Assembly (NCBI GenBank): GCA_046760705.1
Contig: JBHIER010000026.1
Coordinates: 1-14,213 of the forward strand
DNA: 14,213 bases
Direction: 5' to 3'
DNA from: JBHIER01 sp046760705 [NCBI: bacterium]
GTDB taxonomy: Bacteria; JBHIER01; G020348925
Positions 1,585 through 14,213 of this stretch are shown in pieces. Each line of letters begins with the position of its first letter. Positions within the stretch are counted from its first letter, which is position 1. The notes under the pieces are model-generated. The model did not search any database and had not been told where the DNA came from. It saw only the letters and a list, made by a program, of their open reading frames with translations. The position numbers and the translations under genes were made by a program.

Positions 1585-2937
1585 ATGGGGGGACTATTTA
1601 CAGTTGTTACGGCTTTGGCTTTATTGGCCACCATTTCCTTGAAATCGGAGGCCGGTGAAGAGGGCAATGATTTCGATCGTATGAAATTCACCGGAGCCTA
1701 TCGGGTCAGAACCGTATTTTTCAACTACGGTACGGCCACTCCTCTCTTTTCTTTAGATTTAGATTTAGATCCAGGAATAGGTCCTGAGACCGATTCGAAG
1801 ACACGAAAACTTGTCGACCAGAGGTTCAGATTTTCTCTGGTCAGCCAAGCCAGTGAGAACCTCAAGGGTGTCCTGGCCTTCGAGATCGGCGATATTGTGT
1901 GGGGTGTGGGAACACACGGTGTGGGCGAAAATTACGGCGGGGCGCAGGGCGCGGACGTGGTCAACGTAGAGACCAGAAACGCTTACCTGGATTTCAATAT
2001 CCCCGATACCCGCACGAACATTAAAGCCGGCATTCAATCGCCCTTGGATGGATTTAAGGGTTACCTCTTCGACTGGGACTGGGATTTCGATGTGGCCGGA
2101 ATTGAGGTCAATACTAAATTCAATGCCCATTCTTTAACTGTTGGAGCCTTTAGATTGAACGAGGGAGGCGATCTCACCCAGGCTGACGATAGAGATCTGT
2201 TAAAGATCGGGGCCGACTTATCCTTCTCTGGCAAATGTAACGTGAGCCCACATATCTATTTCCTCAACGATGACAGGAAAATCGATAGAGGGACGGGAAT
2301 GCTCTCCACCGCCCGGGATTTATGGGCTGGTGTAAGTTGTGTCAAAGAATGCGGAGGATTTGATCTTAATGGTTTTGTTCTGTACAACAAAGGTAAGACG
2401 GACTTCGACAGCGTCGGTGTTGAGGATGTAGACAATTCAGGCTTCGCAGTTAACTTTGAAGGCAGTAAGGATTTCGGCTCGACAGCCCTCAGCCTTCAAG
2501 CTACCTATTCCACCGGGGAGAAGGAGAGCTCAACAAGTACCAGTCGCGGGGATTTCCATGTGATTCTCGGTCCCAATTATGCCGGCTACTTGGAGATCTT
2601 CACGGCTTTAAATGAGGACGTAGCTGGCCTCAACGTCGATCTCAACAACAGTGGCTTGGGGCTTCTGTCTCTTCAGGCGCGAGCCAGATTCGAACCCAGA
2701 GAGAGGATCTGGACCACCTTTGCTGCTGGCTATCTCCGCTCGACAGCGGAGAATGCTTATGGTAAGAAAGATATGGGGATAGAACTCGATGCGGTAGTGG
2801 GATATGAATTTACCGGTGGCCTGACGGCCGAATTGGGAGCAGCTTATGGTTTGGTGGGCGATTTTTATAACACCACCGCTAACCCGGATCCGGACGACAT
2901 GTTTGAGATCTATACCCGATTGCAATATAGTTTTTAA
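1585..2937 (+). CDS. Outer-membrane beta-barrel protein (porin-like)
   Basis: 450 residues from ATG 1585, which has AAAGGAG at 1572-1578 with 6-base spacing. The frame is open further up to a TTG at 1507 that also has a GGGAG ahead of it, so a 476-residue form is possible. The upstream form would place RKERK before the hydrophobic segment and give a more classical positive n-region. After the signal segment (GLFTVVTALALLATISLKSEA) the protein shows alternating amphipathic strands (MKFTGAYRVRTVFFNYG, FRFSLVSQA, GVLAFEIGD, AYLDFNIPD), aromatic girdle residues and a C-terminal phenylalanine (YTRLQYSF), the usual barrel-assembly signature. An Asp-rich SLDLDLDPG loop comes from a three-fold GATTTA-type repeat. 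No specific family recognised; it resembles the putative porins found beside respiratory gene sets. It probably passes substrate or anions to the periplasm (inference). Confidence 0.7.
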   Translation: MGGLFTVVTALALLATISLKSEAGEEGNDFDRMKFTGAYRVRTVFFNYGTATPLFSLDLDLDPGIGPETDSKTRKLVDQRFRFSLVSQASENLKGVLAFEIGDIVWGVGTHGVGENYGGAQGADVVNVETRNAYLDFNIPDTRTNIKAGIQSPLDGFKGYLFDWDWDFDVAGIEVNTKFNAHSLTVGAFRLNEGGDLTQADDRDLLKIGADLSFSGKCNVSPHIYFLNDDRKIDRGTGMLSTARDLWAGVSCVKECGGFDLNGFVLYNKGKTDFDSVGVEDVDNSGFAVNFEGSKDFGSTALSLQATYSTGEKESSTSTSRGDFHVILGPNYAGYLEIFTALNEDVAGLNVDLNNSGLGLLSLQARARFEPRERIWTTFAAGYLRSTAENAYGKKDMGIELDAVVGYEFTGGLTAELGAAYGLVGDFYNTTANPDPDDMFEIYTRLQYSF

Positions 2938-3088
2938 GTAGAGGAGGTGATGCCCAAAAGGCAAATTGAAAAATAGGAAAAAGGTAAAAGAAGAAAGGGG
3001 GTGATCGCTATTCCGTATCGATTGTCAGGATATATACAAACAGGTAGTTTTAGACCGAGTGAGGAAAGAGAAAGGAGATTTGTATAAA
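2938..3088 (+). other. Spacer between the two porins with orphan ribosome-binding sites
   Basis: No terminator-like hairpin is visible after the first porin. Two strong Shine-Dalgarno-like purine blocks occur. GAGGAGGTGA at 2941-2950 leads only into an 8-codon frame (ATG 2950 to TAG 2976). GAAAGGGG before GTG 3001 leads into a 28-codon frame that stops at 3085-3087. Neither peptide is recognisable. A very weak promoter-like TTGTCA (3022-3027) is present. Confidence 0.35.
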
Positions 3089-4174
3089 ATGAGAGCGGTT
3101 AAATTGATGCTTTGTCTGGCGGCATTTCTATTTGTGTGGTCAAGCGCCAATGGCCAGGAGAATGTGGTCTCCAAAAAGTCAAGGTTGACCTTTGCCGGAA
3201 GGCTGCATGGCCAGTTCCACACTTCCAATGTGGAAGCGGCTGAGGAGATGAACAACACCTTTTATATCCGCAGAGCGAGGCTGACTGCTAAGTATGAAAA
3301 CCCCCAGGGCACAATGAAGGCAAAGGTGCAATATGATCTGGGAGGGGGAGGGGTAAAGCTCAAGGACGGTTACGTGGATTTAACCCTCGACCCCAAGTTC
3401 AACATCAAGCTCGGCCAGTACAAGAAGCAGTTTTCGCTGTGGGAGCTGACCTCGAGTACCAAAACTATGGTCATCGAAAGGGGGAATAAGCTCATTGGTA
3501 GCGACTGGAAGGCCACCAATCAGATCATCATCAAAGACGGGCTGTACGCCGGTCGTGATATTGGTGTTACGCTGCACGGAAAGGTAGAAAAGGTTAAATA
3601 CTACCTGGGAGTATTCAATGGCAACGGGTATCACAAGAAGGCTGACGACGATAACGGGAAGTTGATTGGTGGTCGAGTTGTCCTCAGTGCTCTGGAGGAT
3701 CTGGCTTTTGGTGCGAGCGTTGCCAATCGGACCGTCTCTAACTATGAAAAGGTTGCAGATAGCGACACGAGCTATTCGAAGGAGAACTTCCAGGCCTTTG
3801 AGGCCGATGTGGAGTACGGCATAAAACACCATGTCTCCAAGACCGGCCCCTGGGTACAAGCAGAATTTCTCTACGGCTCTAATCCCTATTACGATGACGA
3901 GACAGATTTCATGGGATTTGCCTTTATAGGGAGCTACAACGTGAAGTTGGCTGAGGGAGGAAAGATCTATTCGGTGCGCCCGGCAATTCGGTTTGACTAT
4001 GCCCAGAGGGACACGGATGACGATGACACCAGGAATATTCTGGTCACCCCCGGCGTGGATATCTTCTTCGATAAGTACAACAGAGTCCAGATAAACCTGG
4101 ACGTGAACATGCCACAGAAGGATGGGGCCGATACCGAGTACGGTCTGAGGGTTCAATTCCAGATGCACATCTAA
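3089..4174 (+). CDS. OprP/OprO-like porin (phosphate-selective porin family)
   Basis: 361 residues from ATG 3089; AAAGGAG lies at 3071-3077. I prefer this start to GTG 3059 because it opens directly into a classical signal peptide (MRAVKLMLCLAAFLFVWSSA, cleavage likely near ANGQ). The mature protein begins RLTFAGRLHGQFHTS and contains NTFYIRRARLTAKYENPQG, VQYDLGGGGVKLKDGYVDL and NIKLGQYKKQFSLWELTSS. This is the pattern of OprP/OprO-type trimeric anion porins, in which FxIRRAR and the LGQFKxPF-like strand are hallmarks. The C-terminus (EYGLRVQFQMHI) is a terminal strand. The gap to the ferredoxin subunit is 24 bases with no terminator, so it is probably cotranscribed with the reductase. The inferred job is to admit an anionic substrate across the outer membrane. 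Family fit is good; phosphate specificity should not be assumed. Confidence 0.82.
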   Translation: MRAVKLMLCLAAFLFVWSSANGQENVVSKKSRLTFAGRLHGQFHTSNVEAAEEMNNTFYIRRARLTAKYENPQGTMKAKVQYDLGGGGVKLKDGYVDLTLDPKFNIKLGQYKKQFSLWELTSSTKTMVIERGNKLIGSDWKATNQIIIKDGLYAGRDIGVTLHGKVEKVKYYLGVFNGNGYHKKADDDNGKLIGGRVVLSALEDLAFGASVANRTVSNYEKVADSDTSYSKENFQAFEADVEYGIKHHVSKTGPWVQAEFLYGSNPYYDDETDFMGFAFIGSYNVKLAEGGKIYSVRPAIRFDYAQRDTDDDDTRNILVTPGVDIFFDKYNRVQINLDVNMPQKDGADTEYGLRVQFQMHI

Positions 4175-4198
4175 TCGAGATATCAGGGAGGTGAGATC

Positions 4199-4993
4199 AT
4201 GGAGAAGCTGCTGGAAAAACCGGCTGGCCGACGCGAGTTTTTGAAGCTGGGTGGCGGTGCAGCCGTCGCTCTGGCCACAACGAGTATACCAGAACAGCTC
4301 TTTGCCGCTGCTGAAAAGAAGGCGGCAGTCGCCAGATACGCCATGGTCATCGATCTGGGGCGCTGTGTCGGCTGCCGCGGGTGTACGGTTGCCTGCAAGA
4401 GTGAGTATCACGATCCTCTGGGATACTGGCGGAGCTGTGTGCAGCAGAAGGACAGGAGGAAATATCCCCAGACCGAGCGGCATTTTCTCCCCGTATTGTG
4501 CAATCACTGCGCCAATCCGCCCTGTGTAGAGGTCTGCCCGGTGGATCCCATCAAGCGAACCTACAAGGGCATTGAATATGAGGGCAAGGCCACCTATCAG
4601 CGGCCGGACGGCGCGGTGCTGGTCGATGAGTCCATCTGCGTGGGCTGTGGCGCCTGCATCGAAGAATGTCCCTACGGTGCCCGCTTCTCTCATCCTCTCA
4701 GAAAGGCAGGGGCTGAACCCGAAAACAACACCATTGGCAAGTGCACCTACTGTGCCCATCGAGTCGATCAGGGGGTCGTCCCCTCGTGCGTGAACACCTG
4801 CCTGGGCAGAGCCAGAACCTTCGGGGACATCAACGATCCTGGTAGCGAGGTTTCGAAACTGCTTAAAGCTCACAAGACGCAGGTTCTGCTTCCGGAAGAG
4901 GGCACTGATCCTCATACCTTTTACATCGCCTTCGAACCAGGCGTCTACCAGCGATACAAAGCAGGGGAGGGGTTACGCGATGAGATTAAATAG
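4199..4993 (+). CDS. Tat-exported four-cluster [4Fe-4S] ferredoxin subunit of a molybdoenzyme (TtrB/PsrB-like)
   Basis: 264 residues with a textbook ribosome site (GGGAGGTGA, 4186-4194). A Tat signal with RREFLK at residues 11-16 precedes a GGGAAVALA core, so this subunit carries its own export signal. Sixteen cysteines form four complete cluster motifs: C56-C59-C62-C66, C101-C104-C109-C113, C147-C150-C153-C157 and C182-C185-C197-C201. The length and the LPVLCNHCANPPCVEVCP block match electron-transfer B subunits of tetrathionate, polysulfide, thiosulfate and arsenate reductases. It passes electrons between a quinol or cytochrome donor and the catalytic subunit, whose start codon lies inside its last 14 bases, implying translational coupling. 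No NrfD/PsrC-type anchor follows. Function as electron-transfer subunit is near certain; the substrate-specific family is not. Confidence 0.92.
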   Translation: MEKLLEKPAGRREFLKLGGGAAVALATTSIPEQLFAAAEKKAAVARYAMVIDLGRCVGCRGCTVACKSEYHDPLGYWRSCVQQKDRRKYPQTERHFLPVLCNHCANPPCVEVCPVDPIKRTYKGIEYEGKATYQRPDGAVLVDESICVGCGACIEECPYGARFSHPLRKAGAEPENNTIGKCTYCAHRVDQGVVPSCVNTCLGRARTFGDINDPGSEVSKLLKAHKTQVLLPEEGTDPHTFYIAFEPGVYQRYKAGEGLRDEIK

Positions 4994-7442
4994 ACGAAAT
5001 TTTTTGAAATTGGGGGCCGCCAGCGCCGCCGTGTTGGCCGTGGGAAAAGGATCCGAGAGCCTGGTCGGTGAGGTGACCCTTCAAAGAGGAGGTAAAGATT
5101 TTTCTCCTGAAACGGGCAAGGAACGCCAGGCCATCCCCAGCGCCTGCTGGCAGTGCGTCTCCAGAGACGGGATCATCGGCTACGTCGAAGACGGCCGGGT
5201 GGTGAAACTGGAGGGCAATCCCGAACTGCCGAGAACCGGCGGCGTGCTCTGCGCCAGGGGACAGGCCGGCATCAACCAGCTCTACAATCCCGACCGCCTC
5301 CTCTATCCCATGAAGCGGGTGGGCAAGCGCGGCGAGGGGAAATGGAAGCGCATCTCCTGGGACGAAGCCTTAGATGAACTGGTGTCCAGGTTGAAGAAGC
5401 TGCAGGATGCGGGAACGCCGGAAAAGTTCATGTTCCACTACGGCCGGATGAAGGCCTCATCCAGCAAGATCATCAAGAGCTATTTTCTCCCGGCCTACGG
5501 AACCAAAACCATTGGCAACCACACCTCCATCTGTGAGGGGGGCAAATGGACGGCCCAGGAGCTGGTCTGGGGCAAGCACTACGATGTCAACGACCTGACC
5601 CGCACCAACTTCATCCTCAATTTTGGCTGCAACTTTCTGGAGACGCACACCTCTCACATTCCCATCGCCCAGCGAGCTGTGGACGCTCTGGCCCGTGGGG
5701 TGCCACTGGTAACCTTTGACGTCAGGCTATCGAACACCGGGGCTAAATCGCGGGAGTGGATACCCATCAAGCCAGGTACTGACGGGGCAGTGGTGCTGGC
5801 TATGGCCCACGTGGTCATGGAGGAGGGTCTTTACGATAAGGACTTTATCGAGACGTGGACCAACGTCACGGTGAACCAACTCAAAGACCACCTGAAAGAG
5901 TATACTCCGGAGTGGGCCGAAAAGATCAGCGGTGTTCGCGCCTCAAAAATAGAGTCACTGGCCCTCGAGTATGCCCAGGCCAAACCCGCCACCATCGTCT
6001 CCTATCGGGGCGCTATTGCTCACTACAATGGTGTTGAGAACGAGCGGGCCATCCTGATGCTGGAGGCCATCTGCGGGAATATCGATGTGAAGGGAGGTCG
6101 GTGCAAGGCGGTGGGGGCGAAGTGGAAGAATTCCTTCCCTAAGCCCAAAGGCCATCCCAAGAAGCTGAAGATCGTCGATGGGTTCGAAGGTCAGGCGGCC
6201 TATCCTACCCACCACGTGAACCATCAGGTGCTCAAGCTCATCAAGGAGGGCCAGCACGGCCGGCCGGAGATCTACATGATCTATTGCTACAACCCAGTCT
6301 ACGTCAATGGTGAGTGCCAGGAGAACATCGATATCTTGAAGGATGAGAGTTTGATACCCTACATTGTGGCTGTGGATGTATGCACGAGCGAGTCCACGGC
6401 TCTGGCCGACCTCATCCTCCCCGATGCCACCTACCTGGAGCGCTGGGACTGGGAGGATATGGTTTCCTACGACCAGATCCCAGAGTACTACATCCGTCAA
6501 CCACTGGTTCGGCCTCTGGGCCAGGCCCGGGATTTCAAGGACGTGTGCTGCGAAATTGCGCGCAGATTGGGCGGCCAGGTGGCTGAGGTGATGGCCTTCA
6601 AGAGCGCCGAGGAGTTCGTGCGCGACGCCTGCGAGCATACCCCTGGAGTGAAGGAGGCAGGTGGATTTGAGTACATGAAAAAACATGGCGCCTGGTACGA
6701 TAAGACCGCCAAGCCGAAATACAGATCCTATGCCAAAGAGGTGAAGTCTGAGGATCTTGAGGGCGCCATCCTGGATGAGAAGACGGGTGTCTATTGGAAG
6801 GGAAAGGAGGGTGAGGATTACACCACCACAAAGGGTGCCTACAAGAAGTATGTGGGTCAGAAGATTGGGGATAAGGTCTATGTGGGGTTTAAACCCGATA
6901 AGGTCAACAAGTCCGGAAAATTCGAGATCTACTCCGAACTTCTGAAGCTCAAGGGGTTTGATCCCATGCCCACGTATCTACCCATCCCGGAGCATGAGAA
7001 GATGAAGAGGGATGAGCTGATCCTCACCACTTACAAGGTCAATGTCCAGACCCACTCCCGCACCCAGAACTGCAAATGGCTGACGGAGATCTACCACGAC
7101 AATCCGGCCTGGGTTCATCCGCAGACTGCGGCGGCCAGGGGTATTAAAGACGGGGACAAGATTCGGGTGAAATCCTCTGTCGGACAGATTGTGACCAAGG
7201 CCAAGCTGACCGAAGGGATCCATCCGCGAGTGGTAGCTATTTCCTATCACCTCGGACACTGGGAGTACGGCGAATACGCCTCCGGGAAGAAGACGGCCAG
7301 TCATGTGTGTGAGCCGGACTGTGAGTTCAAATGGTGGAAGGAGACGGGTGTTCATCCCAACTGGGTGATACCCAACTCACCTGAACCCATCGGCGGCCAG
7401 ATGCGCTGGATGGATACGGTAGTAACCGTGGAGAAGGCGTAG
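4980..7442 (+). CDS. Periplasmic molybdopterin oxidoreductase catalytic subunit (MopB/DMSO reductase family), substrate unknown
   Basis: 820 residues; ATG 4980 lies inside the end of the preceding gene, with GGGGAGG at 4964-4970. A Tat motif NRRNFLK (residues 4-10) precedes a short AASAAVLAV core. The FS0 motif is C56-x2-C59-x3-D63-x27-C91: the third cysteine is aspartate. The expected metal ligand is C185 in GNHTSICEGGK, a PsrA/Arr/Ttr-like type II site. FILNFGCNFLETHTSH, PIKPGTDGAVVLAMAHV and SESTALADLILPDATYLERW are standard MopB landmarks. The C-terminal dinucleotide domain starts near TTYKVNVQTHSRT and includes HPQTAAARGIKDGDKIRV. The length suits the PsrA/PhsA/ArrA range and is short for TtrA. 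The partner ferredoxin and TorD-like chaperone flank it, and a Moco-supply operon follows. Candidate substrates are oxyanions (arsenate, selenate, antimonate) or sulfur compounds; nothing seen decides between them. Confidence 0.92.
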   Translation: MRLNRRNFLKLGAASAAVLAVGKGSESLVGEVTLQRGGKDFSPETGKERQAIPSACWQCVSRDGIIGYVEDGRVVKLEGNPELPRTGGVLCARGQAGINQLYNPDRLLYPMKRVGKRGEGKWKRISWDEALDELVSRLKKLQDAGTPEKFMFHYGRMKASSSKIIKSYFLPAYGTKTIGNHTSICEGGKWTAQELVWGKHYDVNDLTRTNFILNFGCNFLETHTSHIPIAQRAVDALARGVPLVTFDVRLSNTGAKSREWIPIKPGTDGAVVLAMAHVVMEEGLYDKDFIETWTNVTVNQLKDHLKEYTPEWAEKISGVRASKIESLALEYAQAKPATIVSYRGAIAHYNGVENERAILMLEAICGNIDVKGGRCKAVGAKWKNSFPKPKGHPKKLKIVDGFEGQAAYPTHHVNHQVLKLIKEGQHGRPEIYMIYCYNPVYVNGECQENIDILKDESLIPYIVAVDVCTSESTALADLILPDATYLERWDWEDMVSYDQIPEYYIRQPLVRPLGQARDFKDVCCEIARRLGGQVAEVMAFKSAEEFVRDACEHTPGVKEAGGFEYMKKHGAWYDKTAKPKYRSYAKEVKSEDLEGAILDEKTGVYWKGKEGEDYTTTKGAYKKYVGQKIGDKVYVGFKPDKVNKSGKFEIYSELLKLKGFDPMPTYLPIPEHEKMKRDELILTTYKVNVQTHSRTQNCKWLTEIYHDNPAWVHPQTAAARGIKDGDKIRVKSSVGQIVTKAKLTEGIHPRVVAISYHLGHWEYGEYASGKKTASHVCEPDCEFKWWKETGVHPNWVIPNSPEPIGGQMRWMDTVVTVEKA

Positions 7443-8116
7443 TGGAGGCACCATTAACAAGAGAGAGGATGGCCGAGGTGGCTTCGAGCCGGAGCAACCT
7501 GTACGGTCTCCTCTCTCTCATTTTCAGGCAGGAACCGACCCTCGAGCTTCTACGACAAATCCGGCAACCAGAGGTTCTGAAGGCGCTGTCCGCCATGGGA
7601 CTCTCCTTGGAAAAGACATTCCTCGGCGGGAATGAAGAGCAGGTCTTGGAGGAGCTGGTGTTGGAATATACCAGACTGTTCCTCGGTCCAGGACCACACA
7701 TCTCCCCTCATGAGTCGGTTCATCGAGCCGATGAGTCCAGGCCAGGACTCATGTGGGGAGATTCGACGGTCGAGGTTAAGAAGTTGGTCGAATGGCTGGG
7801 CCTGAGCTATGGGGAGGAATATCGGGGGATGCCGGACCACATCAGTGTCGAACTGGAGTTGATGCAGAAGATCACCGAAAGGGAAAAAGAGGCCTGGGAG
7901 CAGCAGGACCGGGACACAGTAGCACGGTGTTTAGAATACGAGAAAAAATTCATTGACGAGCATCTCCTTCGATGGATACCGACTTTCTGTGACAGAGTGA
8001 TGGAGGGGTCTCAATTGGATTTCTACCGAGAGATGGCCAGGGTAACCAAAGAATATCTACGATTTGAAAAGGAACAGGTGCATAAATTGAGCGAAGAAAC
8101 AGGAAACTTCTTGTAA
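7442..8116 (+). CDS. TorD-family chaperone for the molybdoenzyme
   Basis: 224 residues from a GTG at 7442 that shares one base with the TAG of the catalytic subunit; an AAGG lies 5 bases upstream. ATG 7469 (residue 10) is an alternative. The all-helical sequence has the TorD/DmsD signatures EYTRLFLGPGPHISPHES (residues 75-92) and MPDHISVELELM (residues 130-141). Members bind the Tat signal of a MopB apoenzyme in the cytoplasm and hold it until the molybdenum cofactor is inserted. Its position directly behind the catalytic gene makes it the dedicated chaperone. The riboswitch-like leader of the next operon starts 14 bases after its stop. Confidence 0.9.
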   Translation: MEAPLTRERMAEVASSRSNLYGLLSLIFRQEPTLELLRQIRQPEVLKALSAMGLSLEKTFLGGNEEQVLEELVLEYTRLFLGPGPHISPHESVHRADESRPGLMWGDSTVEVKKLVEWLGLSYGEEYRGMPDHISVELELMQKITEREKEAWEQQDRDTVARCLEYEKKFIDEHLLRWIPTFCDRVMEGSQLDFYREMARVTKEYLRFEKEQVHKLSEETGNFL

Positions 8117-8117
8117 A
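8064..8117 (+). promoter_or_regulatory. Weak candidate promoter for the Moco-operon leader, inside the end of the chaperone gene
   Basis: The leader begins so close to the chaperone stop that a separate promoter must lie in the coding end. The best I see is TTGAGC (8087-8092) with TGTAAA (8112-8117) 19 bases later; TTGAAA at 8064 has no -10 at a proper distance. Read-through from the reductase operon is an equally good explanation. Confidence 0.15.
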
Positions 8118-8130
8118 CGATCAGAAAGTA

Positions 8131-8228
8131 ATCTCCGAGCCCTTCTGCCTAAGGTGTGGGCTAAGGCAGTTGGGCCGATTCGGGTAGAGAAGGAAACGAC
8201 TCTGCCTCCTCGTGCTTGGAAAGGAGAT
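8131..8228 (+). ncRNA. Moco-riboswitch-like aptamer
   Basis: An untranslated leader with strong nested folding. P1 is ATCTCC (8131-8136) with GGAGAT (8223-8228). A second helix pairs GCCC (8139-8142) with GGGC (8172-8175) and, across a TT/TT internal loop, CTGCCT (8145-8150) with AGGCAG (8164-8169). A third pairs GGGTAGAG (8182-8189) with CTCTGCCT (8200-8207), closed by a loop holding GGAAAC (8192-8197). CCGAG (8135-8139) can also pair CTTGG (8215-8219). The CTCCGAGCC, GGCCGA, GGAAAC, GCCTCC and TTGGAAAGGAGA blocks resemble the Moco RNA motif as I remember it; I could not run a covariance model. The downstream genes make and load Moco and import molybdate, exactly the regulon known for this class. 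A tungsten-cofactor variant is possible. Confidence 0.8.
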
Positions 8229-8267
8229 ATGAGTAAAGCCGGCCTCATAAAGCCTGCGTGCGAGGAG
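8206..8267 (+). promoter_or_regulatory. Predicted antiterminator helix of the leader
   Basis: CTCCTCGTGC (8206-8215), in the 3' part of the aptamer, can pair over 10 bp (two wobbles, core of 7 Watson-Crick pairs) with GTGCGAGGAG (8258-8267), the 3' arm of the terminator. Forming it breaks both the base of the GGAAAC hairpin and the terminator, which is the logic of a ligand-OFF transcription switch. The pairing is seen directly; the switching is inferred. Confidence 0.6.
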
Positions 8268-8277
8268 CTGGCTTTTT
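8235..8277 (+). terminator. Intrinsic terminator in the Moco-operon leader
   Basis: AAAGCCGGC (8235-8243) pairs GCTGGCTTT (8267-8275) with one G-T pair; the stem extends through CTC/GAG past a two-base bulge and is followed by TTTTT (8273-8277). It lies upstream of mobB, so it works as the riboswitch expression platform, and also as a terminator for read-through from the reductase operon. Confidence 0.75.
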
Positions 8278-8343
8278 CATTTTGGAGAACTATTTCATAA
8301 GATTTTTATGTTTTCCTCAGTTTGCCCGGGGAGCAATGACTCT

Positions 8344-8850
8344 ATGGTGCCTATCATATCTATTGTCGGTAAAAGGAAAAGTGGTAAGACCACTCTCATA
8401 GAGAGACTAATCCCAGAACTTAAGAACCGTGGGCTTCGAGTTGGGACTATCAAACACGATGTTTACGGCTTTGAAATGGACCGGGAAGGCAAGGACACCT
8501 GGCGACACTCCCAGCCTGGAGCAGAAACCGTTGTGATTGCTTCCTCATCCAAATTGGGCCTTTTTTCAAGGATTGGGCACGAACTGACCTTAGATGAGCT
8601 GGCCAACAAGTACTTTGCCCACGTAGACATTATTTTAACCGAAGGATACAAAAGCGGCTACAAACCGAAGATTGAAGTTCTTCCCAATATTGTTTCGGAG
8701 CCACTTTGCGGTGAGAATGATAATTTAATCGCGGTGGTCTCTGATGGAGAGTTGGAGTTAGGCGTGCCACTTTTTCACCGTGAGGAGACATCTCAGTTGG
8801 CAGATTTTATAATAGAGACTTTCGACTTAAAGGCTTCGAGGGAAAAATGA
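8344..8850 (+). CDS. mobB: Molybdopterin-guanine dinucleotide biosynthesis adaptor MobB
   Basis: 168 residues from ATG 8344, with GGGGAG at 8328-8333. I chose it over the upstream ATG 8308 because it begins directly at VPIISIVGKRKSGKTTL, the N-terminal strand and P-loop (residues 8-17) of MobB. Other family marks are GTIKHDVYGFEMDREGKDTWRH (cut here for length), QPGAETVVIASSS, IILTEGYKSGYKPKIEV and LIAVVSD. MobB is a GTP-binding accessory that helps MobA attach GMP to molybdopterin, giving the bis-MGD form that DMSO-reductase-family enzymes need, such as the one encoded upstream. It is the first gene after the riboswitch-like leader and overlaps mobA by four bases (ATGA). Confidence 0.9.
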   Translation: MVPIISIVGKRKSGKTTLIERLIPELKNRGLRVGTIKHDVYGFEMDREGKDTWRHSQPGAETVVIASSSKLGLFSRIGHELTLDELANKYFAHVDIILTEGYKSGYKPKIEVLPNIVSEPLCGENDNLIAVVSDGELELGVPLFHREETSQLADFIIETFDLKASREK

Positions 8851-9422
8851 CAGGTATTATCCTGGCCGGCGGCAAAAACAAACGCATCAAAACAGATAAA
8901 GCTTTTTTAAAGATAGGGTCGGTACCTCTTATCGACGGTCTGGTGGCGAAATTGGACCCGGTCTTTGAATCCATCCTCATCGTGACCAATACTCCTCAGA
9001 ATTACGAATACTTGGGGGTGAGCTTAGTTGAGGACCAGTGGCCCGGTCGAGGCCCGCTGGTGGGGATATATTCGGGCCTGTCTGTGTCCATCCACCATTA
9101 CAATTTTGTGGTCGCCTGTGATATGCCCTTCATAAATATCGATTTGATTCGCTACATGATGGACAGCGCCGCAGAGTATGATCTCGTCGTTCCCAAATTG
9201 GAGAGCGGCTATGAGTCGTTGTGTGCTGTCTATTCAAAAAATTGTCTCCAGCCAATCCAACGCCAATTGAGGAGTAACAATCTGAAGGTCATCGATTTTT
9301 TTGATCAGGTTAAAGTGAGAGAGATAACCCCCAGGGAGGTGAGAAGATTTGATCCAGACGGTATCTGCTTTTTTAATATCAACACCATTGAGGACTTTGA
9401 AAGTTCAAAAGAGATGGTTTAG
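8847..9422 (+). CDS. mobA: Molybdenum cofactor guanylyltransferase MobA
   Basis: 191 residues; its ATG overlaps the mobB stop (ATGA). The nucleotidyltransferase N-terminal motif is present as ILAGGKNKRIKTDKAFL (residues 5-21). The nucleotide-binding loop departs from the common LAGGxSxRMGxDK pattern: Asn for Ser at 11, Ile for Met at 14 and Lys for Gly at 15, while Arg13, Asp17 and Lys18 are kept. GRGPLVGIYSGL, VVACDMPFINIDLI and YESLCAVYSKNCL are further MobA blocks, including the metal-binding ACDMP. It transfers GMP from GTP to Mo-molybdopterin. The length is normal for the family. The mobBA pair looks more AT-rich than the reductase genes beside it. Confidence 0.9.
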   Translation: MTGIILAGGKNKRIKTDKAFLKIGSVPLIDGLVAKLDPVFESILIVTNTPQNYEYLGVSLVEDQWPGRGPLVGIYSGLSVSIHHYNFVVACDMPFINIDLIRYMMDSAAEYDLVVPKLESGYESLCAVYSKNCLQPIQRQLRSNNLKVIDFFDQVKVREITPREVRRFDPDGICFFNINTIEDFESSKEMV

Positions 9423-9454: not shown

Positions 9455-10684
9455 ATGGTAAAAGAAGGATTGAAATTCAACCGCATGGAATTGGCCGGGG
9501 CCTTAGGCGATATTGGCACTCTGTTTCCCTTGGCCATAGCGTTGATCACCATAAACGGTCTAAATCCCACATCGGTGTTCTTGGTGGTTGGTTTAGTTTA
9601 CATTGGCGCGGGATTGTATTACCGCATTCCCATGCCTGTCCAACCGCTGAAAGCGGTGGCGGCCATAGCTATTGCCGCCAGAACATCGCCGGAAGTCATT
9701 GCCAGTGCAGGATTGATTATGGGTCTTCTGCTGCCGGTTTTTTGGATAAAGAGAGTGGCAGATTTTCTCCAGAGAGTCTTCACCCGCCCCATTGTCCGGG
9801 GCATCCAGTTGGGCATAGGGTTAATCTTAGTCCAACGGGGCGCCAGGTTGATCTTTGGAGAGAGGTTTTTTCTCAATGGGGCCGGCGCAATTTTGAGTCT
9901 GGGTGGGATTCCGGTCTCCATTCTGGTGGCTTCGGTCGGAGCTGGGTTGCTGTTGCTTTTTCGGAGGAACGGCCGGTGGCCGGCTTCCATTCTAATCATC
10001 TCGTTCGGGATCTTGGTGGGGTTGTTGGGTCAGGATTCCTACTCCCTTGCCCTGGGGCCGCTCGGGCCCCAATTGTTTTCGCCCACGATCGAAAGTCTTT
10101 GGGCGGCTTTTATTCTTATCGTAATCCCGCAACTGCCCCTGACTGTGGGTAACGCCATTGTGGCCACCACCGATACCGCGCGGACATATTTTGGTCAAAG
10201 GGCTGACAGGGTCTCACCCCGCTCTCTGCCTGTGAGCATGAGTCTGGGTAACATTGTGGCTGGGTTGTTCATGGCCATGCCGGTATGCCACGGGTCCGGC
10301 GGGCTGACGGCCCACTACAAGTTCGGGGCCCGCACCGGTGGGGCCAACCTAATGATCGGCGGCCTCTGTCTGATCCTGGCACTCCTCTTGGGAAAGGCCG
10401 CCGTGCCTGTCCTGTCCACCATACCTCTGCCTATAATTGGTCTGCTCCTCGTCTATGTTGGCTTGAATCACGCCCTTTTTGTCCGGGACCTGGTGGCCAA
10501 AAGGGATTTTCTCCTCGCTCTTGGAGTGGGACTGGTGGCTGTGATTGCTCAAAACCCGGCTTTTGGATTCGGGGCAGGCATTGCCTTCAATATGGTTCTG
10601 AAGCTGAAAGCGGGCTTCCTGTGGCGAACCATTGCAGGCCTTCAAAAAGAGGTTGAGGAGCCTGTCAGCTATGGAGATGAATGA
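9455..10684 (+). CDS. MOT1-type molybdate (sulfate/molybdate) permease
   Basis: 409 residues, ATG 9455 with AAGGATGGG upstream. A polytopic membrane protein with roughly ten or more hydrophobic segments. The N-terminal ELAGALGDIGTLFPLAIAL, the PMPVQPLKA loop (residues 59-67) and MPVCHGSGGLTAHYKFGAR (residues 275-293) match signature blocks of plant and algal MOT1 molybdate transporters and their bacterial homologues (MFS_MOT1 family, related to SulP/SLC26). It imports molybdate across the inner membrane, without an ABC system. Its place between mobA and moaA in a putative Moco-regulated operon argues for molybdate rather than sulfate as substrate. Tungstate is possible. No STAS domain is present. 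Confidence 0.85.
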   Translation: MVKEGLKFNRMELAGALGDIGTLFPLAIALITINGLNPTSVFLVVGLVYIGAGLYYRIPMPVQPLKAVAAIAIAARTSPEVIASAGLIMGLLLPVFWIKRVADFLQRVFTRPIVRGIQLGIGLILVQRGARLIFGERFFLNGAGAILSLGGIPVSILVASVGAGLLLLFRRNGRWPASILIISFGILVGLLGQDSYSLALGPLGPQLFSPTIESLWAAFILIVIPQLPLTVGNAIVATTDTARTYFGQRADRVSPRSLPVSMSLGNIVAGLFMAMPVCHGSGGLTAHYKFGARTGGANLMIGGLCLILALLLGKAAVPVLSTIPLPIIGLLLVYVGLNHALFVRDLVAKRDFLLALGVGLVAVIAQNPAFGFGAGIAFNMVLKLKAGFLWRTIAGLQKEVEEPVSYGDE

Positions 10685-11693: not shown

Positions 11694-12926
11694 ATGATTG
11701 ACATAGAGGAAGCCAGAGAGAAGATTCGACAGGTAGTGAAGATCTTAGCTCCAGAAAAGATCAACATTCTGGACAGCTTGGGTCTCGTTTTGGCGGAGGA
11801 TGTTGTGGCCACAGATGATATTCCCCCCTTCGACAACTCGGCCATGGATGGATATGCTGTTATTGCCGAGGATACAGAAGGGGCATCGGAGAACAGTCCG
11901 GTCACGCTGAAGGTGATAGAGGATCTGCCGGCCGGATGTGTGCCCCAGAAGAGGGTCGCCCCAGGAGAGGCCACCAGAATAATGACCGGCGCTCCCCTTC
12001 CGGCTGGAGCTGACGCAGTGGTTATTGTTGAGCGAACGCGGCTCTGTGGTAACAAAGTGGAAGTCCTTACGCAGGTGTATCCCGGGGCAAACGTGCGTGA
12101 CCGGGGTGAGGACGTCAGCAGAGGAGAGACTGTATTGAGAAAAGGTGCAGAAATTCGCCCTCAAGAGATGGGTATGCTGGCTTCGCTGGGGAGAAGGGAA
12201 GCAGCGGTCATACGTCGAGCTGAAGTGGGCATCTTGGCTACCGGCGATGAGTTGGTGGAGATCGATGAGGAGATAAAGCCAGGGAAGATACGAAACAGCA
12301 ATAGTTATACCCTGTCCGGTTTAGCTCAACAGTACGGCGCAGTGCCCGTAGATTTAGGCAGAGCTAAGGATACTCCTGAAGAGATTGAAACCAAGATCAG
12401 AGATGGGATCGATCGGACCGATGTGTTGCTCATTTCTGGAGGTGTATCTGTCGGCAAGTACGATGTGGTTAAGATGGTGCTCGAGAAAATGGGTATGAGG
12501 ACAGTGTTTTGGAAAGTGGCCATGAAACCTGGCAAGCCACTGCTCTTTGGTATGCTGTCAGGAAAGCCCATTTTCGGTCTGCCCGGCAACCCTGTTTCAA
12601 GCTTCATCTGCTTTGAGCAATTTGTCAGGCCGGCGCTGATGAGGCTCATGGGGAAGAGAGACACCGGTAAGCCCGAGATGGAAGCTATTCTGGAGGAGGA
12701 AATCAGAGTGAAACCGGGCCGGACGCAATTCAAAAGAGGCCGGGTGGAGAAGAGGAACAGTGAGTATTATGTGAGAACAACCGGCCACCAAGGCTCGGGG
12801 ATTTTGAAATCATTGACGTTGGCCAATGGGTTGATCATCATTCCCAAAGAGGTGACTGTGATGAGAGCGGGGGAAAGGGTACGCGTGCAACTACTGGACC
12901 CTAAATATCTCTTGATATTAGAATGA
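11694..12926 (+). CDS. moeA: Molybdopterin molybdenumtransferase MoeA
   Basis: 410 residues from ATG 11694, with GGGGGAA a few bases ahead; 16 bases separate it from moaA. The family blocks appear in order: PPFDNSAMDGYAV (44-56), TRIMTGAPLPAGADAVV (94-110), NVRDRGEDV (133-141), EVGILATGDELVE (177-189), SGGVSVGKYD (248-257), KPGKPLLFG (278-286) and GLPGNPVSS (295-303), then a small C-terminal beta domain. MoeA inserts molybdate into adenylated molybdopterin in the cytoplasm, before MobA/MobB add GMP. Together with the permease and moaA it completes a supply line for the Moco enzyme upstream. No terminator was seen after it, so the kinase gene 58 bases downstream may be cotranscribed. Confidence 0.95.
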   Translation: MIDIEEAREKIRQVVKILAPEKINILDSLGLVLAEDVVATDDIPPFDNSAMDGYAVIAEDTEGASENSPVTLKVIEDLPAGCVPQKRVAPGEATRIMTGAPLPAGADAVVIVERTRLCGNKVEVLTQVYPGANVRDRGEDVSRGETVLRKGAEIRPQEMGMLASLGRREAAVIRRAEVGILATGDELVEIDEEIKPGKIRNSNSYTLSGLAQQYGAVPVDLGRAKDTPEEIETKIRDGIDRTDVLLISGGVSVGKYDVVKMVLEKMGMRTVFWKVAMKPGKPLLFGMLSGKPIFGLPGNPVSSFICFEQFVRPALMRLMGKRDTGKPEMEAILEEEIRVKPGRTQFKRGRVEKRNSEYYVRTTGHQGSGILKSLTLANGLIIIPKEVTVMRAGERVRVQLLDPKYLLILE

Positions 12927-12984
12927 TGTGTGTTTGCCTTCTCTTGTACCCCAAAGATGAGAACTTGGAGAGGACCAGGTTTTG

Positions 12985-14213
12985 ATGAGTCTTAAAAGCA
13001 AGATCATTCTGTCGTCAGTTTTGATTTTCAGTTTTACCGTAGGGCTCTCGACCTATTTGACCCTGCGGACCCAAGAAAAGCAGCTTCTTCAAGGGATAAA
13101 AGAGAAACTTAACATAATCGCCGACACTATCGAGAGAAGCGTCTCTATTGCCATGATGGAGGGGCAAAGCGATGAAGTTCAGAGTCTGTTGGAAGTCATT
13201 ACTGATCACGAGGATATATCGGCAGTTAGGATTTTGAATGAGAAGGGTAGAATTCTGAGGTCATCGAATAAAGATGAGATAGGATTGTCGATCCACTCAG
13301 AGGATATGGAGGCTTTCGCCGATGAGAAGAGGGAGGTGATGTTTTTAGAAGAGAACAAAGATGGTGAAATGTCTCTTTCAAGGTTCAAACCGATCAACAA
13401 CCTGCCCGAGTGTCACCGGTGTCATGATCCGGGTCAACGGATCAATGGGATATTCGAGGTCCATGTGTCGCTCAAGGACGCTTATGAGAAACTGGCCAGC
13501 AATCGAAAGCTGTGGATTATATCTGCCACGACGACTATTCTGTTATTGGTTTTGGCCATACATGTCCTCTTTTCACGCTTTGTTAACCGACCCATCACCC
13601 ATCTGGGAAGGGTGATGTCCCGGGTGGAGAATGGTGATCTGAGTGCCCGGTGTGGGGATTTCAAAAAGGATGAAATCGGCCGTATCGGCCGAAGCTTCAA
13701 CTCCATGGTCGAACGGCTGGAAGAGACGCAGCGGAAGGTGGAGAAACATCACCAAGAGCAGTTACAGCGGGCGGATCGTTTGGCGGCCATCGGAGAATTG
13801 GCCGCTGGGGTGGCTCACGAGATCAACAACCCCACCGGTATCATCCTGACCCGAAGTGGATACCTGTTGTCAAAGGCCAGGGAGAAGGACCTGCCCGAAG
13901 GGATCCTCAACGATCTGACGGTGATCAACAGACAGTCGAACCGCATCGCCAAAATTACTGAAGGTCTGTTGACTTTCTCCCGAAAATCGCCCTTTGAACT
14001 CAAGCCCACCTCTGTTCACGAGGTTATTGACAGAACGCTTCTTCTGGCTCAACATCGGTTGACCTCGACAAACATAGATTTGGAGAAAGAATTCTCCGCG
14101 GAGAAAGAATTCTCCTCGGATGGCCCCATCATTTCCGCAGACTCGAATCGGTTGGAGCAGGTCTTTTTGAACATGATCAATAACGCCATCGATGCCATGC
14201 CGGAGGGTGGAAC
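12985..14213 (+). CDS. Sensor histidine kinase with periplasmic CxxCH motif and HAMP domain (3' end beyond window)
   Basis: The first 409 residues, from ATG 12985 preceded by GGAGAGGACCAGG. Order of parts: TM1 (about 6-27), a periplasmic sensor region of about 140 residues, TM2 (about 172-194, LWIISATTTILLLVLAIHVL), HAMP (RPITHLGRVMSRVENGDLSA), a coiled coil, then the HisKA dimerisation domain with phosphorylated H278 in AAGVAHEINNPTG, and the start of the HATPase domain (N-box LNMINNAIDAM). The periplasmic part contains C143-H-R-C146-H147, a c-type heme attachment motif (CxxCH), close to TM2. The HATPase domain carries an in-frame tandem EKEFSA/EKEFSS. Its response regulator is probably just past the window. 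A role in controlling the respiratory module is inferred from position only. Confidence 0.9.
   Translation, partial: MSLKSKIILSSVLIFSFTVGLSTYLTLRTQEKQLLQGIKEKLNIIADTIERSVSIAMMEGQSDEVQSLLEVITDHEDISAVRILNEKGRILRSSNKDEIGLSIHSEDMEAFADEKREVMFLEENKDGEMSLSRFKPINNLPECHRCHDPGQRINGIFEVHVSLKDAYEKLASNRKLWIISATTTILLLVLAIHVLFSRFVNRPITHLGRVMSRVENGDLSARCGDFKKDEIGRIGRSFNSMVERLEETQRKVEKHHQEQLQRADRLAAIGELAAGVAHEINNPTGIILTRSGYLLSKAREKDLPEGILNDLTVINRQSNRIAKITEGLLTFSRKSPFELKPTSVHEVIDRTLLLAQHRLTSTNIDLEKEFSAEKEFSSDGPIISADSNRLEQVFLNMINNAIDAMPEGG
14083..14118 (+). repeat. 18-base tandem direct repeat inside the kinase gene
   Basis: Two adjacent copies of GAGAAAGAATTCTCCGCG (14083-14100 and 14101-14118) differing at one base. 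They encode residues 367-372 and 373-378. Each copy is also a small inverted repeat around GAATTC. It looks like a recent in-frame slippage duplication. Confidence 0.85.

Follow-up and report, generated by a model that had tools for sequence, protein, structure and literature searches.

A P3-less Moco/Tuco-family RNA as a predicted transcriptional OFF switch between reductase and cofactor genes

What does the short RNA between a reductase operon and a cofactor gene cluster control, and which metal cofactor might it sense? The question is raised by the window studied here, by which we mean the whole 14,213-nucleotide stretch of bacterial DNA that was analysed (contig JBHIER010000026.1; features in Table 1). 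An initial annotation, made from the letters alone, had read the leader ahead of mobB as a Moco-riboswitch-like element with a terminator and an antiterminator. On the sequence evidence, we consider it very probable that the leader is a P3-less Moco/Tuco-family RNA acting as a transcriptional OFF switch.

Table 1. Positions of genes and RNA elements in the window
Feature	Position	Strand	Evidence
4Fe-4S electron-transfer subunit (TtrB/DsrO/ArrB-like, below their cut-offs)	4199–4993	+	Pfam, NCBIfam
DMSO-reductase-family molybdopterin oxidoreductase (closest model PhsA, below cut-off)	4980–7442	+	Pfam, NCBIfam
TorD/NarJ-type chaperone	7442–8116	+	Pfam, NCBIfam
RF01055 aptamer (Moco/Tuco riboswitch), P3-less subtype	8121–8242	+	cmscan, 71.1 bits
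P1 5′ strand (partner 8223–8228)	8131–8136	+	MFE; Rfam alignment
P2 with CCUAAG/CUAAGG tetraloop-receptor-like internal loop	8139–8175	+	Rfam alignment, fold
P2-P4 junction CGAUUC, at the P3 position	8176–8181	+	Rfam alignment, relatives
P4 hairpin, GAAA tetraloop (GGAAAC 8192–8197)	8182–8207	+	Rfam alignment, fold
Putative antiterminator 5′ arm (overlaps P4 3′ strand and P5)	8206–8215	+	Fold, shuffles
P1 3′ strand	8223–8228	+	MFE
Intrinsic-terminator-like hairpin (U-rich tail 8273–8283)	8235–8275	+	Folding, energy scan
Putative antiterminator 3′ arm (overlaps terminator loop and 3′ arm)	8258–8267	+	Fold, shuffles
mobB (start 8344 more likely)	8308–8850	+	Pfam, NCBIfam
mobA-like nucleotidyltransferase	8847–9422	+	Pfam, NCBIfam
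MOT1-family transporter (PF16983)	9455–10684	+	Pfam
moaA	10688–11677	+	Pfam, NCBIfam
moeA-like (just under MoeA cut-offs, over molyb_syn domain cut-off)	11694–12926	+	NCBIfam

A Member of the Moco/Tuco Family without P3

Does the leader belong to a known RNA family? A covariance-model search had been named beforehand as a test that could overturn the Moco reading. When the window was compared with Rfam 15 (cmscan), a single match stood above cut-off: RF01055, the Moco/Tuco riboswitch, with a score well over the gathering score of 36, and the resemblance described in the initial annotation holds. The alignment spans model positions 1–135 with the P3 stem positions deleted, and the junction at that place reads CGAUUC (CGAUA is usual in P3-less RNAs). 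Judged against Rfam and 35 relatives, the RNA has P1, P2, P4 and the conserved junction letters, as well as the GNRA tetraloop of P4 and the tetraloop receptor of P2, whose 3′ half (UAAGG) differs at a single base from the Rfam consensus UAUGG. Its setting upstream of Mo/W cofactor and transport genes is also the one expected of RF01055. By its sequence, the window RNA is thus a further member of the known Moco/Tuco family, of the P3-less subtype.

The three helices and the GGAAAC loop that had been described are all present in the minimum free energy (MFE) structure of 8117–8283; the lack of a P3 stem, the helix that marks the P3-containing Moco subtype, had been overlooked. When the shorter stretch 8117–8235 is folded, a competing hairpin opens P1 in the MFE structure, but the centroid retains P1. 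Folding z-scores are −2.43 and −2.21, and the 3′ side of the aptamer reads UUGGAAAGGAG. We aligned 36 P3-less RNAs (window included) hand-picked for breadth: double changes occur in 13 of 20 predicted pairs, and P2, P4 and the GGAAAC hairpin are kept. P1 is nearly invariant and lies outside the predicted structure of that alignment; the helix is kept yet gives no covariation.

How does this RNA compare with described systems? The account of the P3-lacking (Tuco/Wco) subtype by Regulski et al. (PMC2408646) matches it in sequence, in P1, P2 and P4, in the GAAA tetraloop with its receptor and in the missing P3; cofactor genes follow those RNAs too, and terminators follow some of them. The window RNA differs in its receptor and junction letters and in its position, 14 nt past a chaperone gene and ahead of mobB-mobA with a MOT1-family transporter. 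The Moco riboswitch of Escherichia coli moaABCDE belongs to the same family and has the same class of target genes, but it contains P3 and carries its ribosome binding site within P1, according to the same paper; RNA-seq data give signs that it modulates termination (PMC12121620). Another P3-less RNA, in Calditrichota locus L027, also lies within a mob-moa-MOT1-moe cluster, although the gene order is different (mobA, RNA, moaA, MOT1, moaC-B, moeA) and a TTG-start ORF begins 7 nt past the aptamer core, a translational layout.

A Predicted Terminator and Antiterminator

Is there an expression platform? An energy scan found a hairpin resembling the intrinsic terminator that the initial annotation had placed after the aptamer, at −14.8 kcal/mol with a U-rich tail. 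The stem can be extended into AUGAG/UUCAU, reaching −17.4 kcal/mol; this would shorten the U-tail and counts against termination there. A terminator-like hairpin arose in 49 of 300 shuffles of 8228–8290, and one of −13 kcal/mol or better in 9 of the 300. A stock terminator scan, which allows loops of 3–8, reported none around 8235–8275 because the loop of this hairpin is long.

The alternative pairing between the 3′ side of the aptamer and the terminator is present exactly as had been proposed: 10 bp, two of them G-U. Together they form a putative terminator-type platform—a terminator plus a mutually exclusive pairing with the aptamer. An equal run length was reached in 3.6% of 3,000 shuffles and an equal pair score in 1.0%, yet the energy of the whole duplex is unremarkable (269 of 2,000 shuffles were equally good); the evidence for an antiterminator in the window alone is therefore suggestive, modestly better than chance. 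Folding both states showed them to be nearly isoenergetic, with −61.8 kcal/mol for aptamer plus terminator (the MFE structure of 8117–8283) and −60.2 kcal/mol with the antiterminator forced, a difference of 1.6. In the test of complementarity between the aptamer and the terminator region described next, the window ranks at a percentile of 0.17.

That test covered 201 of the 209 loci collected (window included), namely those with 90 nt or more of downstream sequence. Terminator-like hairpins were found in 129/201 loci vs. 18/64 shuffled stretches. In those 129 loci, the region up to the end of the hairpin is more complementary to the final 32 nt of the aptamer than its shuffles are (median percentile 0.205; Kolmogorov–Smirnov [KS] P = 6.6e-11; 34% of the loci at 0.1 or lower). 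Some places are shared between the locus sets; a repeat count without the window, a mislocated locus (L148) and duplicates gave hairpins in 122 of 191 distinct loci, a median of 0.2225 and a KS P of 8.5e-10, with 41 of the 122 at or below 0.1. Several strong relatives pair CCUCCCGUGUUU with AAACACGGG, and many of the strongest share the register of the window, in which the CCUCC-CGUG side of P4/P5 faces the terminator loop and its 3′ arm. The terminator/antiterminator plan is thus clearer in relatives than in the window itself, and its recurrence across the group is strong sequence support for it. The P1, GGAAAC-hairpin and terminator pairings that the initial annotation expected homologous leaders to keep are found there: the hairpin covaries, as do P2 and P4, P1 is conserved and the terminator plan recurs.

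A Switch inside an Operon?

What would such a switch control? The chaperone gene torD stops 14 nt before P1, and the genes downstream are mobB-mobA-MOT1-moaA-moeA by Pfam and NCBIfam; both the placement and the cofactor and transporter genes of the initial annotation were recovered. The ORF of mobB shows homology from its residue 14 or 16 onward and GGGGAG lies just upstream of 8344, which makes 8344 a more likely start than 8308. Within each of the gene groups flanking the RNA, intergenic gaps are short or negative. Farther downstream, past moeA, a sensor histidine kinase gene (12982–14211) is truncated by the end of the window; its CHRCH motif is a possible haem-binding site.

With cofactor bound, P1, P2 and P4 would close and hold the 3′ side of P4 and P5 within the aptamer; the terminator hairpin would then form and RNA polymerase would stop before mobB. 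With cofactor absent, the two antiterminator arms would pair and block the terminator, and the five genes from mobB to moeA would be transcribed. Family membership, the possible pairings and the gene layout can be read from the sequence itself; ligand binding, termination and read-through are inferred from them. Where would the polymerase come from? A scan limited to sigma-70-like sites found none above 8/12 in 7950–8131 and none at 9/12 in 7900–8500. Because there is no clear promoter between torD and the aptamer, we favor read-through from the reductase-torD genes as the input, an arrangement that would leave the enzyme genes on and let cofactor synthesis and metal import track demand. The RNA would probably be a mid-operon attenuator that parts enzyme genes from cofactor genes, and the gene layout suggests that the transcripts it would terminate come from the reductase operon.

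Is this placement unusual? We scanned genome contigs with a DNA pattern drawn from the aptamer core, which matched at least 119 loci and whose gap limits favor P3-less RNAs. One match (L008) looks false and was dropped; the other 118 listed were assessed by inspection, with covariance-model scores only for those that recurred in other sets. These 118 Moco-like RNAs among the matches listed come from Chloroflexi, Desulfuromonadales, Synergistales, Calditrichota, Actinomycetota, Clostridiales and others. In 15 of them a co-directional ORF of 150 aa or more lies no farther than 60 nt upstream of the RNA, so the window is not alone in having its RNA so near a preceding gene. Ten of these upstream proteins were scanned and all ten have a Pfam domain; they include FdhD (L023), a MobA-like protein (L027, NTP_transf_3) and an ABC ATPase with TOBE (L021), as well as glycosyltransferases (L074 and L108) and DXP synthase (L004). 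Loci with the same kinds of genes also exist. A Nitrospirae metagenome-assembled genome has reductase, ferB and torD followed, 1.8 kb on, by a P3-less Moco RNA with moaA and moeA (L012), while reductase-ferB-torD-moaA-MOT1 (L295, genome G141) and reductase-ferB-torD-MOT1 (L294, genome G847) each run on one strand. Neither of the latter two has an RF01055 match, nor did a low-threshold cmscan of the gaps after torD find a Moco RNA. These loci are kin of the window by layout and not close relatives, since reductase precedes ferB in them, opposite to the window, and the proteins are 25–46% identical.

Two other readings of the platform have to be weighed. A promoter inside torD would make the RNA an ordinary 5′-end riboswitch, with the reductase operon merely ending upstream; such independence would suit the 103 of 119 listed loci (window included) in which the RNA is not within 60 nt of an upstream ORF. 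Against it stand the gap of only 14 nt between torD and P1, the lack of any promoter-like site scoring above 8/12 and the two loci just described in which reductase-ferB-torD runs into MOT1 or moaA-MOT1 on one strand, and we regard it as rather doubtful. A 23-codon ORF (8229–8300) opens just past the GGAG of P1 and continues through the terminator, probably by chance. If it were real, the 3′ strand of P1 (AAAGGAG) could serve as its Shine–Dalgarno sequence in a translational or leader-peptide switch: its AUG stands 2 nt past GGAG, and in several loci (L013, L040 and L046) a long ORF starts about 10 nt or less after P1. However, a spacing of 2 nt is short for a ribosome binding site, a start codon so near is by our estimate common by chance and mobB homology does not set in until 8344, which together make this reading very unlikely. 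We retain transcriptional termination as the preferred mode of action.

Molybdenum or Tungsten?

Which cofactor would the RNA bind? In the survey of Regulski et al. (2008), 58 of 176 Moco-family RNAs lacked P3, 17 of 19 organisms carrying P3-less RNAs also had tungsten-cofactor (Tuco) genes, and such RNAs were proposed to sense the tungsten cofactor; an E. coli RNA deprived of P3 lost regulation and did not swap its ligand (PMC2408646). Since the window RNA is of the P3-less subtype, its ligand may be the tungsten cofactor rather than Moco. We found no later test of the P3 rule in titles and abstract openings of the riboswitch literature, in which few subscription journals were covered.

We compared P3 status with downstream genes in three samples of RF01055 hits, taken irrespective of P3 and limited to the better-scoring ones, with phylum labels inferred; the pattern-derived loci were kept out because their gap limits favor P3-less RNAs. 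P3 was called by eye from folds, automatic calling being unreliable for P3-containing RNAs, and part of the informative Bacillota calls were read a second time. TupA, WtpA or AOR downstream of the RNA counted as tungsten (W) genes and ModA as the molybdenum (Mo) gene, assigned by tblastn with reference proteins checked in NCBIfam (those for ModA and WtpA pass the cut-offs; those for TupA and AOR match their own models best, below cut-offs). In the Bacillota sample (G026), 116 of 199 genomes were over the RF01055 cut-off, and we used 69 RNAs, one per genome (30 loci with 1.5 kb downstream and 39 with up to 2.9 kb). The 25 informative ones comprised 13 W and 3 Mo cases among P3-less RNAs against 1 W and 8 Mo among P3-containing RNAs (Fisher P = 0.0021; two loci from different genomes with identical aptamer cores, L176 and L177, are both in the test). 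In the Actinomycetota sample (G009; 48 of 198 genomes over the cut-off, 25 of 30 RNAs informative), the P3-less RNAs gave 17 W (of which L196 is a weak match) and 0 Mo, and the P3-containing RNAs 8 W and 0 Mo. All eight informative P3-containing cases there precede TupA or WtpA; three are followed by a second Moco RNA (L193, L207 and L206, the last at 35.0 bits, just under the cut-off), and no second Moco RNA was found in the other five loci. The deltaproteobacterial sample (G027; 33 of 148 genomes over the cut-off) yielded 29 P3-less RNAs in 30 loci, with 9 W and 0 Mo; the remaining locus, L148, was mislocated, has no W or Mo gene assigned and is uninformative. The P3 rule is thus supported in the Bacillota sample and fails in the Actinomycetota sample; it is not universal, and the ligand is not readable from P3 alone. 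As the rule rested on 19 organisms, this sharpens the question of which metal P3-less RNAs sense.

Can the transporter gene help? An initial protein search of genome contigs returned no MOT1 relatives. Among samples from two phyla, 11 of 251 genomes in one and 44 of 247 in the other had a MOT1 match, with best identities of 48–49%, and in a third phylum sample 0 of 8 genomes had one; the best match to the window MoaA is 53% identical (G011; 40 of 42 genomes have a match). Identities at this level did not assign the window to a phylum. MOT1 mostly occurs without a Moco RNA, as only 2 of 20 MOT1 loci scanned have one within 1.5 kb (L271 and L274). Conversely, a MOT1 match lies within 2.5 kb in 7 of 119 pattern loci among the matches listed (window included, L008 excluded), and in L013/L271 the RNA is immediately ahead of a MOT1 gene whose product is 47% identical to that of the window. 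In L299, a P3-less Moco RNA is followed by TupA and then by a MOT1 homologue (2828–5503), which ties MOT1 to a tungstate-transporter gene. The window and L013, L027, L046, L050, L109, L114 and L299 together link MOT1-family transporters to the Moco/Tuco class. Near another MOT1 homologue, in L273, lies a fluoride riboswitch (RF01734; 613–673, minus strand; 40.9 bits).

The tungsten reading holds that the missing P3 marks a tungsten subtype and that MOT1 imports tungstate or both oxyanions; it narrows the OFF-switch explanation and does not oppose it. The 17 of 19 organisms, the Bacillota contrast and L299 speak for it, whereas the eight Actinomycetota cases, a MOT1 gene downstream of a P3-containing RNA (L274), the E. 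coli deletion and the window itself—which has mobA, mobB and a DMSO-reductase-type enzyme and, among its genes annotated with Pfam and NCBIfam, no TupA, WtpA or AOR—speak against it. On balance we hold it tentatively, at somewhat less than even chances. The fuller version, in which a tungsten-cofactor switch inside the reductase operon would split the transcript into a constant enzyme part and an on-demand cofactor part with MOT1 as the oxyanion importer, seems unlikely; if true, it would make MOT1 a riboswitch-controlled importer of tungstate (or of both Mo and W) in bacteria.

Tandem and Multiple RNAs

Three loci, from three genomes of the Actinomycetota sample, have tandem RNAs ahead of TupA, one P3-containing and one P3-less: L265 (201–346 and 416–534), L266 (201–350 and 493–612) and L267 (201–320 and 454–599; the second RNA, with two hairpins in its fold, was assigned to the P3-containing type by inspection). 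Should P3 determine the metal, such mixed tandems would act as two-input Mo/W gates. In the passages of PMC9481103 covered here, Moco tandems and Wco tandems are given separately, and mixed pairs go unmentioned. Two genomes, G250 and G378 (L250–L264), have 15 and 16 RF01055 matches and carry RNAs of both P3 types. These include a triplet of P3-containing RNAs (L251), P3-containing RNAs before ModA (L252 and L257) and P3-less RNAs before a NuoG-like/formate dehydrogenase pair (L250 and L260), before WtpA (L256) and once before ModA (L264).
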